From: Bacteroidales bacterium
Lineage (GTDB): Bacteria; Bacteroidota; Bacteroidia; Bacteroidales; UBA932
DNA: 47,362 bases
Assembly (NCBI GenBank): GCA_017651465.1
Contig: JAGCCX010000039.1
Span: 1-47,362, forward strand
Direction of reading: 5' to 3'
Each line of letters begins with the position of its first letter. Position 1 is the stretch's first letter. The notes under the pieces are model-generated. The model saw only the letters and a program-made list of their open reading frames with translations. It did no database searches and had not been told where the DNA came from. Position numbers and translations under genes: made by a program. Shown one piece after another: positions 11,054 through 38,700 of the stretch.

Positions 11054-11779
11054 CTACCAATTCTTTTCTTTCTGGCGGGACTTAAGCGCTTCGGCTTTCT
11101 CCTTTTTCACCTTGTCCTGGGTTTCTTTTTCCTTGGCCTGGATTGCCTGGAGCATTTGCTGGGCCTGCTGGGGCGAAATCTTCTGCTCCTGCTCCTGCTG
11201 ATCCTGGTTCTGGTCTTGCTGGTCCTGATTCTGATCCTGATTTTGCTGCTGGTCCTGATTCTGGTCCTGCTGATCCTGCTGCTGATCCTGGTTCTGATCG
11301 TTATTCTGCTGGTCCTGGTTCTGCTGGTCTCCGCCGCCACCGTTCTGCTGGTTCTGGAGCATCAGTTTGGCATAGATGTAATTCTCTTTGGCGTCGAGGT
11401 CGTCGGGAGTGAGCAGCAGGGCCTCGCGGAAAGCCTTGACGGCGGTGGCGTAGTCTTTCTTCTGGAGCGCCACATCTCCGCTGTTGTAGTGCCATCGAGC
11501 TGCATTTTCGGTGGACGGGGCAATGTCCTTTACCCTCTCCAGGGCCTTTCCCGCTCCCTCCCAGTCTTGCTGGCGGTACAGGGCGGAGCCCAGGTTGTAA
11601 TTGCCCGCCACCGACAGGGAATCTTTGACCACAGCTTTGCGGTAGTCGATCTCAGCCTCCTTGAAAGCTTCTTTCTTGAACTTGCGGTTGCCGGCGCGAA
11701 CTTCCCTCCGGTCGGTTTGGGCGCCCAGGGTGAAGCTCAGCGAGAGCAAGAGCAACAATGTGTGTATCAGGTACTTCAT
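11054..11779 (-). CDS. batC: BatC-like TPR protein
   Basis: This 241-aa exported protein has a signal peptide (MKYLIHTLLLLLSLSFTLGAQ) and TPR units from about residue 25 to 140, including VAGNYNLGSALYRQQDWEGA, RWHYNSGDVALQKKDYATAV and FREALLLTPDDLDAKENY. A Gln/Asp/Asn repeat of about 55 residues follows. It ends in a charged helix (QAKEKETQDKVKKEKAEAL). It overlaps batB by 4 nt (ATGA). BatC is thought to act with the VWA proteins BatA and BatB in the envelope; its molecular role is not settled. The Q/D/N tract is an expanded version of the short tracts common in BatC proteins. Confidence 0.88.
   Translation of the reverse strand: MKYLIHTLLLLLSLSFTLGAQTDRREVRAGNRKFKKEAFKEAEIDYRKAVVKDSLSVAGNYNLGSALYRQQDWEGAGKALERVKDIAPSTENAARWHYNSGDVALQKKDYATAVKAFREALLLTPDDLDAKENYIYAKLMLQNQQNGGGGDQQNQDQQNNDQNQDQQQDQQDQNQDQQQNQDQNQDQQDQNQDQQEQEQKISPQQAQQMLQAIQAKEKETQDKVKKEKAEALKSRQKEKNW
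11180..11340. repeat. Q/D/N-coding repeats in batC
   Basis: Variants of CTGGTCCTGATTCTG and CTGCTGATCCTG recur many times, encoding DQNQDQQ units on the minus strand. All units are multiples of three and the copies differ mainly at synonymous sites. Confidence 0.8.
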
Positions 11780-16705: not shown

Positions 16706-17623
16706 TCAATAGCGGATGTCGGTAAGGAAAAGGGCGTGCCCGGGGACGGATTCGCCGGCGTTTGACCTTAGGCTCACTTTGCCTGCGGGCGGGGTGCTTC
16801 CGGGGGCCGGAGCATCGAGGATGAGCGAGGCAAAATCCTGCTCTGAGCGGCGCGAGCGGCCTGTTTCTAGCAGGGTGCCTACTATGGCCCGGACCATATT
16901 GCGGAGGAACCTGTCGGCCTCGATGGTGAATCGCCAGTAGATAACACCATTGCCGAAGTTTGCTGCCGGTCTGGAGCCTGCTCCGGCAGCATTTTCCCAA
17001 AGTTTTTTTGCTGCCGGAGCAGGCTCCAGACCGGCAGCATTCTCAAAGCTGCAGAGCTCCGGCGAGTAAGGCTCCCAGAGGGCTTTGTAAACTGTGCAGA
17101 CGGAGGTTTTGTTGTCGCCGCCGGACTTTTCGAAGCAGCTGAAATCGTGCTTTCCCAGGAGCAGCGCCGCCGCCCTGTTCATAGCGTCGAAATCGACGTC
17201 GGGATAGCCGAAATAGAACGAGCGGCTCTCGAGGAACGGGTCTTTGCGCCTGTGGAGGAAGTATTGATACTGGCGGCACACGGCACCAAAGCGGGCGTGA
17301 AAATCGGCGGCGACAGGGGTTATGCCTTGAATTGCGATAGCCTTGGGGAGTATGGCGTTGAGCTTGTAAGTCAATTGCTTACAGTCAACTGCGCCCTCTC
17401 TCTCCACGCCCTCGGGCACCTGGCCTTCGAAGTCGAAATGGGCCACGTAACGGCTCGCGCTTACTCCGGTGTCGGTGCGTCCCGCTCCCACCACTGTTAT
17501 GCTTGAGCGAAGCAGGGTGGAAAGAGCCTTTTCGAGCTCTTCCTGCACTGAGGGGGCGGAAGCCTGAATCTGCCAGCCGCAGAAAGGCGCGCCGTCGTAA
17601 CTGAGGTCTATCCGGTATCGCAT
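16706..17623 (-). CDS. truA: tRNA pseudouridine(38-40) synthase TruA with palindromic insertion
   Basis: TruA modifies positions 38-40 of tRNA anticodon arms. The 305-aa frame has the N-terminal YDGAPFCGWQIQ motif and the catalytic Asp in GAGRTDTGVSA. It also has HARFGAVCRQYQYFL and the C-terminal ADRFLRNMVRAIVGTLLE. Residues about 196-222 are an extra segment, with two ENAAG...PAA repeats, lying between the W-EPYSPELCSFE strand and NGVIYWRFTI. It is encoded by an inverted doublet of a 29-nt quasi-palindrome and makes the protein longer than the usual 245-270 aa. ATG 17623 is 4 nt after the phosphatase stop; the 19 codons upstream of it overlap that gene and look non-native. Confidence 0.93.
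   Translation of the reverse strand: MRYRIDLSYDGAPFCGWQIQASAPSVQEELEKALSTLLRSSITVVGAGRTDTGVSASRYVAHFDFEGQVPEGVEREGAVDCKQLTYKLNAILPKAIAIQGITPVAADFHARFGAVCRQYQYFLHRRKDPFLESRSFYFGYPDVDFDAMNRAAALLLGKHDFSCFEKSGGDNKTSVCTVYKALWEPYSPELCSFENAAGLEPAPAAKKLWENAAGAGSRPAANFGNGVIYWRFTIEADRFLRNMVRAIVGTLLETGRSRRSEQDFASLILDAPAPGSTPPAGKVSLRSNAGESVPGHALFLTDIRY
16962..17038. repeat. In-frame palindromic doublet inside truA
   Basis: Two 29-nt arms, 16962-16990 and 17010-17038, are perfect reverse complements separated by 19 nt. Each arm is itself quasi-palindromic: GCTGCCGG, 13 nt, CCGGCAGC. The 13-nt cores are in opposite orientation in the two arms, as in head-to-head REP doublets. Both arms are flanked by similar ATTYTC-CAAAG sequence on the right, so each may be a copy of one unit with flank. 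The element is read through in frame. Confidence 0.9.
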
Positions 17624-17627
17624 CGTA

Positions 17628-18977
17628 TCAATTCTTGACTTTGGGAGGGGCCTGGGTCGATGCGATGATGCCCTTGGCAAGTTCTATCCTCTGCAGGGCG
17701 AACGCGCGCAGGTCCTCCCACCGGTAGTAATAAGGAGTGCCGCAGTCGGCGATGGGCAGCGCCAGGTCGCGCTCGTTGTACATCATCCGCACCAGCACTT
17801 CGCCACGGCAGTTGCGGTAGAATACGAACTGCACGTTCAGCGACATAGGAAAGTCGTACGAGCGGAATACATCTTTGACCTCGGCGGCATTGCCCGCGGG
17901 CTTGTTGTAGCCGTCGATATCCAGCAGTACGAACAGCGACATTATGATGATATCGTGCCCGAAACGCAGCCTGGCGGCATATTCGCCGGTGCTGATGTCG
18001 TTGTCGGCCTTGTCGATTATCTCCTGCATCGTGCGCCAGACGAAAGCCCACTGGCGCCCTTTCTGCCACAGGGTGTCGGCTCCTTTGGAGCAGTAGAAGC
18101 GGTAGTTGTAGCACTCGAACAGCCTGCAGAGCTCCTCGTAGGGGATGAACTCAATCAGGTTGTTCTCGACCTTCTCGTTGCACTGGAGATTGACGGCTAT
18201 GGCGTACAAGTCGCGTTCGAGTTTGCGGGCGCCTCCGAACTCTTCGAGTATCGACAGATCTTTCAGCAGCGGGGCGAAAACCAATTCGGGCTTCTGCTGC
18301 TGCGCGCACATCTCGAGGAAGCTTTTCTGCCAGTAAGCGTACTTGTTGTTGTAGCCCTCGTCGGTGGGCTGAACATCGGGGTTGGAGAGGCTGAACGGGT
18401 TGAGGTAGCCCATAGTGGCGCCGCTCGCCTGCAAATCGATCTGCAGACGGGGATTGTCGTGCTGCAGCTGCTCGGCGAACGCCGACATAGTGAGTATGCA
18501 CCTCGGAACGATGGTCGATACGGCATCCACCCGGGCGTTCTTGCGGAATACCCTGGGGTAGTTCCGGTACATATTGTGGGCTATCTTGTGCTGCTGCTCG
18601 CGTCCCAGCCCGGTAAGGTCACCGCCGCGGTCCTTAACTACCTCGTAGGTAGGACCATAACGCTTGAGGAACTCCTCTCCGCGTTCGGTCAGCAGGCCCC
18701 TCTGGCCGGCGGCGCTGAAGAGGGCCATTATGGAATCGTAGTCGCTGTCGGAGGAGTGGTTGCGGGCTCCGTGCCGTCCGTAGTGGCTTATGTAGAATGC
18801 TTTGAATCCCTTGGGAGCGGCGGCATGGGCGGGTATCCCGTCGTGCTTGTACATATAGAATACCGTGCCTGCGCGGTTCGGGTCCTGGCGAATCTCTTCG
18901 AACGCGTTTCTGCTCTGGCCTGAAAGGGCTGCGGAAAGGCAGCAGAGGGAGAGCAAGAGCGCTAATTTCTTCATCAT
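17628..18977 (-). CDS. Secreted histidine-type (acid) phosphatase
   Basis: This 449-aa protein has a signal peptide (MMKKLALLLSLCCLSAALSGQ) and the branch-2 histidine phosphatase signature YGRHGAR, with the nucleophile His69 between Arg68 and Arg72. The proton donor motif is GHD (His341-Asp342). It resembles the periplasmic phytase/MINPP-like phosphatases of Bacteroides, so inositol phosphates or other phosphomonoesters are possible substrates; the sequence does not decide. It is followed after 4 nt by truA, an unrelated cytoplasmic enzyme. It is divergent from the DPP IV-like gene across 59 nt. A TATTTTCG box at 18999-19006 on the minus strand could be its -7 element. Confidence 0.87.
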   Translation of the reverse strand: MMKKLALLLSLCCLSAALSGQSRNAFEEIRQDPNRAGTVFYMYKHDGIPAHAAAPKGFKAFYISHYGRHGARNHSSDSDYDSIMALFSAAGQRGLLTERGEEFLKRYGPTYEVVKDRGGDLTGLGREQQHKIAHNMYRNYPRVFRKNARVDAVSTIVPRCILTMSAFAEQLQHDNPRLQIDLQASGATMGYLNPFSLSNPDVQPTDEGYNNKYAYWQKSFLEMCAQQQKPELVFAPLLKDLSILEEFGGARKLERDLYAIAVNLQCNEKVENNLIEFIPYEELCRLFECYNYRFYCSKGADTLWQKGRQWAFVWRTMQEIIDKADNDISTGEYAARLRFGHDIIIMSLFVLLDIDGYNKPAGNAAEVKDVFRSYDFPMSLNVQFVFYRNCRGEVLVRMMYNERDLALPIADCGTPYYYRWEDLRAFALQRIELAKGIIASTQAPPKVKN

Positions 18978-20982: not shown

Positions 20983-22524
20983 ATGACGGTGGAGGATAAA
21001 TACACTGAGACTGTAGAACGTTTGTTCGAGAGGCACCGCAGCGTTCAGACGGCGGGCTTCAGTTCCGATGCTTATAAGCCCGGGCTGGGGCAGATGTTCG
21101 ATTATGCGGGGTTTCTGGGTGATCCGCAGTTGAGGTGGCGTGGGGTGCACGTGGCGGGGACTAACGGTAAGGGGTCGGTGTGTTCGATGCTTGCAGCCGC
21201 TTTTGCGGCAGGGGGGGTGAAGACCGGGCTTTATACTTCTCCTCATTTGGTGGATTTTCGGGAACGGATTAAGGTGCTGGCAGCTTTGGCCCAGGCAGCG
21301 GAGACCGGGAGCGGGGAGCTTCGCTTCGCTCATCCCTCCCAGCCTGCCGGCTGGGCCCCTCCCGTTCACGTAGCCACGGGCGGCTACGGCTCCCCGTCCC
21401 GGTCTCCGCTGCCCCAAGCAGAAGCATCTGAATCTCCACCCGATAACGTAGCCACGGGCGGCTACGGCTCCCCGTCCCGGTCTCCGCTGCCTCAAGCAGA
21501 AGCATCTGAATCTTCACTCGATAACGCAGCTACGGACTGCCACGGCTCACCGTCCGGAGCTCCTCTGCCGGAGGCCGAGATGATTCCACGGGAGGAGGTT
21601 TGTGATTTTCTGGAGCATTACGACCGGGAGGGACTGTCTTTTTTTGAAGTTACTACCGGCCTGGCTTTCAAGTGGTTTGCCGATAGCGGGGTTGATGTGG
21701 CGGTGATTGAAACGGGCCTTGGCGGGAGGCTTGACAGTACCAATATCATTACGCCTGTCATCAGCATCATAACCTCCATCGGCCTTGATCACTGCGCTCT
21801 CTTGGGAAGCACCCGCGCGGAGATAGCGGCCGAGAAGGCAGGGATTTTTAAACCGGGTGTACCCGCTCTTGTGTGGGGCCGCGACCCGGAAACTCAGCCG
21901 GTGTTTGAAAATGCGGCCGCAGAGGCCGGCTGTCCGCTCTACTATGCCGAGGATTTCCCCGTCCCGGAGGATTTCCCTCCTCTCGATCTCACCGGTCCTT
22001 GCCAGGATGTTAACCTTCGTACCGTCCTCGCTGCCCTTACCATACTTGGGGCCTCCCCCCTCCGCCCCGAGGTAAGGCGGGCCATAGCGGCAGCGGCAAG
22101 AATCACGGGGTTGCGGGGCCGCTGGGAGATAGTACTCCGCGAGCCCCTGACTATCTGTGACATAGCTCATAACCCTCCGGCCCTGGAGGTCAATATGGTG
22201 CGCCTCGCCTCCCTGCGCGGTGCCCCAAAGTGCCCCCTTCTGATAGTGTTCGGGGCTATGGCCGATAAAGACGAGGACTCGGTGGCCGCACTCCTCCCGC
22301 AAGATGCCGAATACTATCTGGTCAGGCCGGCTACGCCGAGGGCTATGAAAGAGAGCGATTTGGCACTGAAATTGAAAAGAAAACGCTTTTTGGTACAGTC
22401 ATCCGTAGCCGCGGGCGTTCAAGCCGCCCTGGATAGGGCAAAACTGTTGCCGGACCCTATAATTTACATAGGCGGAAGCACTTACGTGGTGTCGGAAGCC
22501 ATTTCATATTTAGAGAGCGTATGA
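20983..22524 (+). CDS. folC: Folylpolyglutamate/dihydrofolate synthase FolC with a ~100-aa repeat insertion
   Basis: FolC adds glutamate to folates and may also make dihydrofolate. The ATP-binding motif is HVAGTNGKGSVCSML. SPHLVDFRERIKV, ETGLGGRLDSTN, ITSIGLDH and EKAGIFK are all present, with a C-terminal Mur-ligase-like domain (CDIAHNPPALEVNM). The 513-aa length exceeds the usual 420 or so because residues about 99-199 are foreign. After RERIKV, where NGEMI would normally follow, there is an Ala/Ser/Pro/Gly-rich segment with 26-residue repeats containing VATGGYGSPSRSPLPQAEAS. The native sequence resumes at EMIPREEVCDFLE. ATG 20983 gives a normal FolC N-terminus; the frame upstream of it overlaps the peptidase gene. 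The stop overlaps the next gene by 4 nt. Confidence 0.92.
   Translation: MTVEDKYTETVERLFERHRSVQTAGFSSDAYKPGLGQMFDYAGFLGDPQLRWRGVHVAGTNGKGSVCSMLAAAFAAGGVKTGLYTSPHLVDFRERIKVLAALAQAAETGSGELRFAHPSQPAGWAPPVHVATGGYGSPSRSPLPQAEASESPPDNVATGGYGSPSRSPLPQAEASESSLDNAATDCHGSPSGAPLPEAEMIPREEVCDFLEHYDREGLSFFEVTTGLAFKWFADSGVDVAVIETGLGGRLDSTNIITPVISIITSIGLDHCALLGSTRAEIAAEKAGIFKPGVPALVWGRDPETQPVFENAAAEAGCPLYYAEDFPVPEDFPPLDLTGPCQDVNLRTVLAALTILGASPLRPEVRRAIAAAARITGLRGRWEIVLREPLTICDIAHNPPALEVNMVRLASLRGAPKCPLLIVFGAMADKDEDSVAALLPQDAEYYLVRPATPRAMKESDLALKLKRKRFLVQSSVAAGVQAALDRAKLLPDPIIYIGGSTYVVSEAISYLESV
21295..21412. repeat. Inverted-repeat element inside folC
   Basis: The 25-nt arm at 21295-21319 is complementary to 21389-21412 with a single one-base gap. 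The interior contains two further palindromes: CCCAGC/GCTGGG around 21338-21355 and GTAGCC/GGCTAC at 21370-21387. It also has TTCGCTTCGCTC and GCCCCTCCCG, shared with 135-163 at the left end of the window. The element is open in the folC frame. Confidence 0.85.
21370..21579. repeat. 78-bp tandem repeat in folC, 2.7 copies
   Basis: Copies start at 21370, 21448 and 21526 with an exact 78-nt (26-codon) period. The first two differ at only three positions; the third is diverged and ends where native folC resumes. The first copy overlaps the right arm of the inverted-repeat element, so the tandem array seems to have grown by duplicating one end of it. Confidence 0.92.
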
Positions 22525-33366: not shown

Positions 33367-34380
33367 ATGAAAAAACTATTCTCTCTCTTGCTGTCCGTCG
33401 CGCTCCTGGGTCTCGCAGTGGCTTGTACGCCCTCGCCCGTGCCCGACGACGGTCAAGAGCAGGGGCAGGAGCAAACCGACACTCCCGACGAGCCTGAGAC
33501 TCCTGAAACCCCTGAAACCCCTGAAACCCCTGAAACCCCTGAAACTCCCGAGACACCCGAAACCCCCGAGACTCCGGAAACCCCGGAGCCGGTTAGTTTC
33601 CGCCTGATGTCGTTCAATATACTTCAATCCACATCCGAGACTGCCGGGCGAGAGTGGGCGAGCGTGCGCAAGGCGGCGTGCATCAAGATGTTCAAGGACA
33701 TCAAACCGGATATCGTTTGCGTCCAGGAGGCCCGCAAGACCCAGTGCGCCGACCTGGCGACCGCCCTGACTCAGTATTCACAGATCAAATACCCCAAGGA
33801 CGGTATCGAGTCTAACGGAGGGCAGCGCAACCTCATAATGTACAACAATCTCAAGTTCCTGGTAGTCGAATGGGGCAAATTCTGGTTCAGCGAGGACGGG
33901 ACGGCAAATGGAGGCCGCTGGGGCGACGACGCCACCACCCAGAAGATGACGATCTACGTGCATTTCCGGGAAATGGCCACCGGACGGGAGTTCTGGGTGT
34001 ACGACACGCACTTCTTCGCCAAGTGCAACCTTGAGACTTCGCGCCCGCATTGCGTGGAGATGAGCCTGGCAAGCATCAAGGAGAAAGTGGGCGACGAGGG
34101 CGTGGTGTTCTTCTGCGGCGACCTTAACCTGCAACCCGACGATCCTGTGCTCAAGCCTATGTTCGACTATATGAAACACGCCGCTACCGACGCCGAAGAA
34201 TCGGACGGTGTGGGGGCCATAACGTACAACGGCTTCCGCGAGACCAATCTCAAGGTGCTCGACCATATTTTCTACCGCAACGCCACCGCCCGCACCTACA
34301 AGGTGGTCAACAGCCAGACGGCGTACGGTACCAAGTGGATATCGGATCACTATCCTGTTTACGCTGACGTTGAATTCTAG
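33367..34380 (+). CDS. Lipoprotein of the endonuclease/exonuclease/phosphatase family
   Basis: This 337-aa protein has a signal peptide with a lipobox-like end (LAVAC, Cys20), followed by a short linker and ten ETP tripeptides (residues 44-73). An EEP domain fills the rest. Its motifs are FRLMSFNIL (Asn), VCVQEA (Glu), YDTHFFAKCN (Asp/His), FCGDLNLQP (Asp/Asn) and ISDHYPVYADVEF (Asp-His). All the expected metal and catalytic residues appear intact, so it should hydrolyse a phosphodiester or phosphomonoester outside the cytoplasm; the substrate is unknown. The Pro/Glu/Thr stalk would hold the domain away from the membrane. The MFS gene begins 5 nt after its stop. Confidence 0.87.
   Translation: MKKLFSLLLSVALLGLAVACTPSPVPDDGQEQGQEQTDTPDEPETPETPETPETPETPETPETPETPETPETPEPVSFRLMSFNILQSTSETAGREWASVRKAACIKMFKDIKPDIVCVQEARKTQCADLATALTQYSQIKYPKDGIESNGGQRNLIMYNNLKFLVVEWGKFWFSEDGTANGGRWGDDATTQKMTIYVHFREMATGREFWVYDTHFFAKCNLETSRPHCVEMSLASIKEKVGDEGVVFFCGDLNLQPDDPVLKPMFDYMKHAATDAEESDGVGAITYNGFRETNLKVLDHIFYRNATARTYKVVNSQTAYGTKWISDHYPVYADVEF
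33496..33585. repeat. 9-bp ETP-coding repeat, ten units
   Basis: Ten consecutive 9-nt units GA(A/G)AC(N)CC(N) encode Glu-Thr-Pro. Units at 33505-33540 are four identical copies of GAAACCCCT, so slippage is plausible. It would change stalk length without breaking the frame. Confidence 0.92.
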
Positions 34381-35768: not shown

Positions 35769-38700
35769 ATGAAAAAAATCTTTAGATTCGCAATTGTGTG
35801 CGCCGTCGCAGGTGCTGCACTTTTGACTGGATGTACCAAAGATTTCACCTCTGAGATTGATCAGCTTCAGAAGGACCTTGACGCTCTCACCGAGAAGGTT
35901 AATGGCCTTGAGCAAGACATCAAGAACGGAGCGCTCATCACCGACGTTAAGACCTTCTCTGATGGTAACGGCGGTATTGAGGTTGTCCTGAGCAACGGTA
36001 AATCTTACAAGATTAACAACGGTGCAAAGGGCGCTGACGGACAGGATGCTGACGTTTGGGAAATCAAGAAGGTTGGTGACGACTACTTCTGGTTCAAGAA
36101 CGGCAAGCAGACCGAGTTCAAAGCCAAGGGCGACAAGGGCGACAAGGGTGATCCCGGTGCTCCCGGTGCGCCCGGTGCTCCCGGCGAACCTGGTGCTCCC
36201 GGTGCTCCCGGTGCTCCCGGTGCTCCCGGTGAAACTGGCGCAACTGGCAACTATTGGAAGCCCGACGTGGACGCCAACAAGTGGGTTGAGTACACCAGCA
36301 AAGACGAGCCTACCGGCAAGACCATTGAGCCTATCTTCAAGGAAGGTGGCGCAGTGACCGCTGTCTGGAATGCCGAAGAAGGCACTCTCGAGTTCGCAAA
36401 TGTCAAGGATGCTCCTGAGGGCAAACTTAAGTTCAATCTGAACACCCAGCTCAAGGGCCTCGCATTTGTCCCCAAAAGAATCTTCGACGGTCTCGGACTT
36501 ATCTCCGTATGGGAAGTTTATGCACCTAAGGTTGGTAAGAAATTCCCCTTCATCGACAGGAAGAGCGAGGGTACTTTCCTTGCTACCGCACCGACCGAGG
36601 TTACTTATCGTCTGAACCCTCAGAATGTTGATCCTGCCAAGTATGACTGGAGCTTCATCAACCGCAAGGTTCTCACCGTCACCAAGGCTACCGCTGATGA
36701 CAACGACCTCGTGTCCATCGTCACCGGTCCTGTCAGGGATGGCAAACTCTATGACTTCACCATCAAGCTCAACAAGGCTGCCACTGAGGCTCATTTCAGC
36801 AAGGATGATAAGGACTACAACGACATCGTAGCCCTCAAGGCTGTTGCCAAGGATCCCAGCACTGTTGACGCTGAGTTCGAGAACATCGTTTCCGACTACT
36901 CTTACATCGAGAAGCTTACCAACAAGGATTTCTACATCATCCACAAGGACGGTGAGTTCCTGTATCATGACAAGACCGCTGACAAGGACGTCACCTACAC
37001 TTATGACAAGACAGATCCCAAGTACTATCGTTGGGAGAAGTATGTCGAGATGACCGATCCTTCCGATTTCAACGGTGCTAATACCGACGGAATCGATACT
37101 CCTGCACCTGGTGCTGGCAAAAACCCCAAGGCAATCTCTCTCCCTTACAACGGACAGGTAGACCTGCTCAACTATGTTGAGACCTATGCCCAGGAGTATG
37201 GTGACATCGCAGCTGAAATCGGCATCACTCCTACTTACACCTTTGAGTTTGCCGGCCAGAAGGATGGTTCTACCGATGTTGTTATCAACAGCGATCCTGA
37301 CAAGGCTCCTTATCTTGTATCCGAAGTTGATAAGACCAACCAGAACAAGTTCCTCAAATTCTCCGACAATGGCAGTGGCCAGGATGGTAAGTCCAAGTCT
37401 CTCATCAGCGTCAATGATGAATTTGTCTATAACCTTTCCCCTGCTATCGGCCGTACTCCTCTTGTGTACGTTCAGGCTATTTATGATGGTAAAGTTCTCG
37501 CCGAGTGCTTGATCAAGATCGAGATCACTGCTGAGGCTGCTGAGCCTGTCAAGAACCTCGGTTGGGATGTCTTCCTGTGGCACGATGCTACCTTCAAGTT
37601 CGACAAGCTTACCGCTACTGCTACTGCAAAGGGTGAGAGCTGCGCGTTCTCGACTCCTCACGCTCTTGCTGCTGCTGAAGGACACGGAAATAAGGCTGAC
37701 AAGGAGAAGTGTGACGATGGTCTGGTAGTTGGTTGGGACGAGGTTAACGTCTATGTCCTCAACGACGACTGCGTCAATATGTCTTACGAGATCTTCGGTA
37801 CCGAGAAGTACGATCTTGCAAATCCTCAGCTTATCCTTGCAAAGGATGGTACGGGTGCAGGTATCGAGCCTAAGGATCTCCCTGCGAAGGAAGATGCTAT
37901 CCTTGTAGGTCTTGCTGACATCAACACCTATTACAACAAGAATGCAACCGGTCTTGCTGTGACCAGCCAGAGCCCTGGTAACTGGAAGAACAACACCAAC
38001 ATTGTTGATCTCACCATCTCCAGCGACTTCGATCCTCTGAACGATTACGATGTCCACAATGTCTATGTTCTCTATCCTGCAAAGGATAACACCAAGAACA
38101 TCGATGTGGTTGTCAAGTTCAGCTTCAAGATCCTGCCTCACGAGCACGATTGGACTATCCTCAAGAAGTACGACGACAAGAACTTCTGGATCCTCAACCC
38201 TGACTACATCCTTGGAACCCAGGATCTCCTTATCGAGGAGAAACCCGAGCTCACCGACTACTACGGAACCGAGCCTTACGTCACCTACGGTGGTGTGAGA
38301 GTGAAGGGTCTCGAGACCGATCTCCGTTCCGCATTCAACGAGCACTTCAAGGAGTATGCTAAGGTATGGCAGGATTGCAACGAGAATTCAAGCTACACCT
38401 TCACCATCGTTAACTACAAGGCTGATGTCGTTGACATCGTTCCTGATAGGACCAGCACTACTACTGTTGGTACCGATGCTGATGGCTATGCATTCGTGAC
38501 TATCTCCGGCGCTGACCTCAAGGATATGGGCAAGGGTGACAAGGTAACTCCTTACATCTATGTCCGCAAGCCTGCTGGCCTGAACGTTGGACAGGATATT
38601 CTCGTCGAGGTTAAGGAAACTTGCACCGACATTGCAGACGGTCCTTCTATCTTCGGTTACTACTATGTTGTCTTCGAGGCCATCAAGCCTACCATTAAGT

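Follow-up and report, generated by a model that had tools for sequence, protein, structure and literature searches.

Palindromic repeats inserted in frame in folC and other protein genes of Bacteroidales

An in-frame insert in folC

What kind of DNA can add 100 codons to folC, and how did it come to hold both a palindrome and a tandem array? The question is raised by the window, i.e. the whole stretch of 47,362 nucleotides that we analysed, from a draft Bacteroidales genome (2.5 Mb in 85 contigs, 95% complete). The gene and its insert comprise the following features.

20983..22524, + strand: folC (dihydrofolate/folylpolyglutamate synthase), which carries the insert, 513 amino acids plus stop
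21277..21576, + strand: in-frame insert of 100 codons between RERIKV and EMIPREEV of FolC
21294..21413, + strand: palindromic element, with left arm 21294-21315 and right arm 21392-21413
21358..21569, + strand: tandem array of the right half of the element and a short spacer, 78-bp (26-codon) period, 2.7 copies

The first-pass annotation had reported that FolC is expanded by about 100 residues between RERIKV and EMIPREEV, which agrees with the 100 codons found there. The inverted-repeat element that it described also stands, with outer arms of 22 nt that are 91% complementary, but its span is 120 nt instead of 118 nt. Likewise, the right end of the element is indeed duplicated with a period of 26 codons: the array units at 21358-21435 and 21436-21513 follow an exact 78-nt period and are 95% identical, and a third unit, from 21514, is degenerate. 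Mur_ligase_M and Mur_ligase_C of FolC both lie downstream of the insert, and the solved FPGS (1fgs) aligns to FolC on both sides of it (residues 44-98, and again from 217). An AlphaFold prediction of FolC from the single sequence had a mean pLDDT of 37.7 and is uninformative on the structure of the loop.

Relatives carry empty sites, as expected from the insertion proposed at first pass. The FolC of the nearest sister genome (G023), which is 90% and 84% identical to that of the window over its two parts, has 7 residues (LQPLPGA) at the insert site, giving a net gain of 93 residues in the window FolC. A second relative (G047) has a folC without insert, and a third (G027) has a different member of the repeat family described below at the same site (40.5 bits). 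From the 60 genomes with a FolC match, 30 loci were fetched, of which 29 were measurable. Only the window and G027 have more than 42 residues between RERI.. and FFE among these 29 loci, and the same insert with conserved length and sequence was absent from them. Some of the 30 genomes outside the measured set have FolC frames of 503-614 amino acids, so further FolC inserts are possible. In genome G006 (locus L035), the same FolC loop holds a further short segment (..CHFERSREISK..) that resembles another kind of in-frame repeat.

A dispersed repeat family with a folded core

The insert has many relatives in its own genome. By BLAST, the insert stretch gave 25 matches there, 21 of them outside folC, and the FolC protein gave 4 matches, of which only that of the window is full length among those listed; two of the other listed matches cover the element alone. 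A covariance model (R1) was built from 16 copies. The folC element scores 98.4 bits against this model at 21307-21407, being itself one of the 16 copies used to build it, and the second array unit matches model positions 51-83 (27.8 bits, at 21434-21466). Considering the 25 BLAST matches and the score of 98.4 bits, the folC insert is more than a chance palindrome.

The model found 49 matches in the own genome (E<=0.01). Counting the own genome each time, it matched 82 of 101 genomes of the genus (E<=0.001) and 5 of the 295 genomes sampled from the order (E<=1e-4). Assemblies with few contigs are among the carriers (G096, 5 contigs; G016, 8 contigs). A strict pattern scan of a collection of named sequences matched at least 114 stretches, many of them from ruminant metagenome-assembled genomes (MAGs); the titles of the 114 listed stretches name Bacteroidales, Bacteroidia, Bacteroidaceae and, once, Candidatus Cryptobacteroides choladohippi. 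As regards carriage by phages, no exact match to the element pattern was found in viral contigs. The folC insert thus belongs to a family of short palindromic repeats that is spread across the genus.

Read in one orientation, most copies share the order CTTCGCTTCGCTCATCCCTCCC, variable hairpin, GGGCCCCTCCCGTTCACG, further stem region. Beyond this common core, each copy has its own arms, usually self-complementary. A conserved core of about 70 nt with covarying stems lies between self-complementary arms that are specific to each site. In some cores (L308, L020, L320, L042), a second palindrome, around CCCCCTG..CCCC..GGGGAC, is nested, so elements seem to insert into elements.

In the folC copy, the stems of the core are located as follows.

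21338..21355, + strand: hairpin H2 of the core, CCCAGCC (21338-21344) pairing with GGCTGGG (21349-21355), a stem that covaries between copies
21361..21388, + strand: interleaved stems S1, CCCGT (21361-21365) with ACGGG (21376-21380), and S2, CGTAGCC (21369-21375) with GGCTACG (21382-21388)

Covariation was evaluated on 74 matches from 72 chosen loci, i.e. 71 distinct rows in an alignment fitted to the model. Of the 1953 cells, 88.2% are paired, compared with 73.5% after shuffling and no more than 42.7% in the slid controls, and 19 of the 28 core pairs change on both sides. Among five measures of covariation, one (further pair types) was not above shuffles (213/500). S1 is paired in 100% of cells over the 71 rows; three of its five pairs are invariant and two vary on both sides, with the variants CCCAT/ATGGG or CCCGC/GCGGG. 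S2 is paired in 90.1% of cells, with four of seven pairs varying on both sides and the third pair open in 45 of 71 rows. Judging from these pairings, S1 and S2 could coexist as a pseudoknot or could alternate; alternation seems sterically easier, because a single base separates them on the 3' side. In several copies, conservation is higher in the core than in the flanks, and the core may therefore have a function as DNA or RNA.

We then considered where copies lie. The follow-up covered 43 of the 49 matches in the own genome and 30 of the 36 in the sister, the 6 weakest or partial ones being left out in each case. Of the 43 own copies, 16 are in frame, including a partial one, and they occupy 14 recognisable genes and an unnamed ORF; the figure of 16 counts open in-frame copies, and broken genes among the other 27 lie outside it. 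The hosts, mostly housekeeping genes, are folC, trmB, an rlmI-like methyltransferase gene (two copies, one partial), rsmE, rsmA/ksgA, prmC, an aroE-aroK fusion, hemW, rlmB, a histidine phosphatase gene, pcrA/uvrD, tilS, an EamA transporter gene, aroB and one ORF without Pfam hit. These names are best family hits, several below curated cut-offs (far below for rlmI-like; 24.9 bits under a cut-off of 27.6 for aroB). The hemW copy lies where its contig stops. Copies occur in both orientations within unrelated genes: of the 15 complete in-gene copies, 7 have the orientation of the gene and 8 the opposite one, and several frames are used.

In named MAGs, 16 stretches match host genes with a core inside, and none contains a stop. 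Four are from the sister G023, one from G047 and 11 from other MAGs, and the genes are trmB, rsmE, ksgA, aroEK, rlmB, pcrA or tilS. This count leaves out a hemW stretch whose match is the rlmB element (L242), a ksgA stretch whose copy lies beyond the gene match (L230) and a prmC stretch in which no core was found (L255). The idea put forward at first pass, that palindromic DNA is inserted in tolerated places of proteins, is thus supported across the genus. An unusual scarcity of stop codons in the element was considered and rejected, the 3.48 open frames out of 6 (66 copies) being nothing special next to 3.20 in base shuffles. A gene of the phage-integrase family (L229:5186-6223) also holds an element in frame (100 bits).

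Inversion of the core and change of the arms at shared sites

Sites shared between the window genome and its sister were found by matching the flanks of the 43 own and 30 sister copies. Of the 22 shared sites, 12 have the core in the same orientation in both genomes (both flanks support this at 10, one flank at 2). At the other 10, the core is inverted and the flanks are unchanged (both flanks support this at 7, one flank at 3). All 22 core pairs agree better when both are read in the sense of the model (0.56-1.00) than when one is reversed (0.42-0.65). Orientation is therefore unambiguous, and it is the core that turned, not the flanks. Genes at inverted sites include trmB, rsmE, the histidine phosphatase gene and hemW, the last being the weakest case (one flank, truncated cores). 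In trmB, rsmE and the histidine phosphatase gene, the frame is open both ways and the encoded peptides differ. In more distant relatives, orientation differs in ksgA, pcrA and tilS, where independent insertion is harder to exclude, and not in the rlmB copies seen. Inversion is known between species and not within one population, since the data are draft genomes, one per species.

Arm pairing exceeds that of all 100 shuffles in 38 of the 43 own copies, and in 26 of 29 sister copies. Three of the five own copies without such arms are in genes (hemW, at the contig end; the ORF on contig C80; the partial rlmI copy). Arm columns were counted for 19 of the 22 shared pairs, the other three being interrupted by the end of a contig, by truncation of the core or by a nested insert. 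From 470 aligned columns, 300 are unchanged, 45 changed alike on both arms, 70 changed on one arm and 55 changed otherwise. By a hand calculation, about 1 concerted column is expected if the arms change independently, compared with the 45 observed. At one shared site (L079/L302), the arms changed in whole blocks. At another (L065 vs. L289), the core is identical over 70 nt and inverted, with arms unrelated along their full length, so that repeated switching or replacement is needed there and not simple correction. Compared by eye across sites, only the arms of L088 and L317 looked alike, leaving aside orthologues and a site represented by its two halves.

Empty and partly emptied sites were also found. 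The sister has no insert in folC, prmC and rlmI, and in its pcrA the core is mostly deleted with the arms kept. A long residual palindrome (11 bp, perfect) was present in only 3 of 11 empty sites, against a background of 1.4% (9 of 660 random windows), which is if anything too high, the windows having been drawn from these loci, where they may include the palindromes themselves. The possibility that the arms are inverted copies of the host flank was rejected by eye for rlmI and prmC, compared with the empty sister sites. In the trmB gene of the sister (L152), a tandem array of another kind, in frame and about 17 residues long, lies beside the element; repeat growth at such sites is thus not unique to folC.

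A second hairpin in the window lies in another gene.

16961..17039, - strand: 31-bp perfect palindrome with a 17-nt loop, inside truA (16706-17680, -)

The first-pass annotation had treated truA as a companion case to folC. As a copy of the same element it does not hold, because the best model score over truA is 10.1 bits (at 16794-16847). As a case of similar behaviour it does: the A/T-rich loop looks inverted, by eye, relative to truA of the sister.

Origin and remodelling of the element

The element is probably a selfish repeat that works like the Rickettsia palindromic elements, being tolerated in proteins and remodelled by template switching driven by its hairpin. It would be MITE-like and would persist where the protein tolerates it. 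In single-stranded DNA, a hairpin would allow the polymerase to switch template between the arms. One such switch could copy one arm onto the other, giving good pairing despite a fast-changing sequence, or could instead turn the spacer around. Slippage might delete the core or tandemly duplicate half of it, the latter being the proposed origin of the 78-bp array in folC. We ranked tolerated insertion with template switching first because homogenisation of the arms and inversion of the spacer are both seen, and because loop inversion affects two unrelated hairpins. Speaking against this reading, no transposase or integrase is linked to the element, most empty sites lack a long residual palindrome, and 5 of the 43 own copies have no arms above shuffles. 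Published parts of this process exist: in coding genes of yeast, template switching between the arms of inverted repeats is described as homogenising arms and inverting spacers (in the parts of PMC8604942 consulted), and in rRNA, also that of bacteria, it is reported to cause compensatory changes of several bases and inversions of loops (in those of PMC8794818). These mutations resemble ours by arm homogenisation with spacer inversion in coding DNA in the former, and by compensatory change with loop inversion in the latter; as far as these parts go, they concern ordinary repeats with short spacers, whereas the spacer here is a conserved, dispersed element of about 70 nt.

As a possible but unlikely alternative, the copies could be self-flipping coding cassettes, with arms that are rewritten and a core that inverts often, by DNA structure alone without recombinase, so that one population carries alternative peptides; in that case, movement would use the interleaved stems as its active single-stranded form. 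If true, such cassettes would vary tRNA- and rRNA-modifying enzymes, a helicase and folate synthesis within a population.

A programmed intragenic inverton, in which a recombinase of the host would turn the core so that the gene alternates between two encoded segments (phase variation), appears improbable. The inverted cores at 10 of 22 shared sites do mean that inverted repeats flank an invertible segment, both orientations are open in three genes (trmB, rsmE, histidine phosphatase), and Bacteroidales are known for invertible DNA from the literature as far as consulted. However, no recognition sequence common to the arms across sites was seen by eye, the hosts are mostly housekeeping enzymes, and the unrelated truA hairpin likewise shows loop inversion. 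Chanin et al. 2024 reportedly described intragenic invertons, i.e. DNA inversions inside genes; in our case, what inverts belongs to a dispersed repeat family, and no common recombinase site was seen.

It is also highly unlikely that the element is a functional structured RNA (a ribozyme, a regulator or an RNA excised from the mRNA). Its stems covary, the interleaved pair included, and flanks are less conserved than several cores. Against this, there is no strand preference (7 with the gene and 8 against, of 15), inversion is common, and copies are in frame and open, which is not required if they are removed at the RNA level. Moreover, the window scan gave no Rfam match at the gathering level, and three other loci gave one sub-threshold match (22.8 bits for a cut-off of 37, E 0.095). 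As changes in the stems are mostly Watson-Crick and strand preference is lacking, a single-stranded DNA form fits at least as well as RNA.

Mobilisation as a REP/REPIN element by a tyrosine transposase (RAYT) is very unlikely. The own genome has 5 Y1_Tnp matches, 3 of them over the cut-off; own inverted repeats surround some of these genes, and two variant copies lie upstream of one. Yet the model matches only 1 of 34 Y1_Tnp loci, namely the one with the two variant copies, against 2 of 30 control folC loci (the window and G027), and copies are often intragenic. The 34 loci, taken with 1.5 kb on either side, are the 5 own ones and 29 from other genomes (one each, part of the hits), and with 33 of them showing no element match we rejected this route. 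The family shares with REP, BIME and REPIN elements dispersed palindromes in many copies, but it is not confined to intergenic DNA and shows no general linkage to RAYT; REP and REPIN are also described with a GTAG or CGTC tag at one end (in the part of PMC3733652 consulted). A MITE of a DNA transposon would have shared terminal inverted repeats and a target-site duplication; the arms here differ between sites.

That the insert is a plain low-complexity linker or an assembly artefact, as an 85-contig draft with contig C29 ending at a copy might suggest, is scarcely credible and largely contradicted by the shared sites, homologous cores lying at the same sites in assemblies of other species and the element being also matched in genomes of 5 and 8 contigs.

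Protein-coding palindromic repeats are known chiefly from Rickettsia and Wolbachia. The family described here provides a second lineage, with many sites shared between sisters, in which entry, inversion, concerted change and loss from working genes can be measured. It also offers a genome-wide record of apparent template switching in bacteria, and it cautions against taking clustered amino-acid changes in these proteins as a sure sign of selection.

The closest known system is formed by the Rickettsia palindromic elements (RPE), described, in the parts of PMC2229807 and PMC10969869 consulted, as repeats of about 100-150 bp found between genes and in frame in unrelated conserved protein genes, apparently tolerated, with guanylate kinase as one tested case. 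The element here is likewise a palindromic repeat of about 100-150 bp, in frame in unrelated conserved protein genes. In contrast, its known carriers (all 114 listed stretches) are Bacteroidales and not Rickettsia; an RPE is said to code one conserved peptide (same part of PMC10969869), whereas peptides, frames and orientations differ here; and the arms differ between sites, with the core inverted at about half of the shared sites. No inversion of RPE was noticed in the consulted parts of these two papers. We did not file the element as an RPE since it differs in two features, the host lineage and the single conserved peptide. Among the papers listed in literature searches, no described Bacteroidales counterpart was recognised from titles and the beginnings of abstracts.

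Two other systems share part of these features, again from the parts of the sources consulted. In nematomorph mitochondria, long perfect inverted repeats lie inside working protein genes (PMC6649704); the arms there encode conserved protein regions, whereas ours are inserted segments with a mobile-looking repeat as spacer. Inversion in place is also reported for the short inverted-repeat Correia elements of Neisseria (as cited in PMC10969869); they are described mainly upstream of genes, whereas the present element is also in frame inside genes and has site-specific arms.

Other repeats were observed around these loci. In the window, a 52-bp repeat in 2.7 copies (469-624; GTCGGAGGTGTCCC..CTCCGAC..) has a like sequence upstream of a Y1_Tnp gene (L058) and looks like another dispersed hairpin family. 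Short tandem repeats of 9-bp and about 12-33-bp units lie at 33493-33584, 36147-36231 and 11181-11325. The Y1_Tnp genes of L056, L057 and L059 are flanked by long inverted repeats, as in REP-RAYT systems, and these repeats are unlike the element apart from a GGGAGGG in L057. Finally, at about position 1470 of L065, GTTCCACGTGGAAC, which we take to resemble a parS site, is located within a few bases of a copy, and its sequence is also conserved in the sister.
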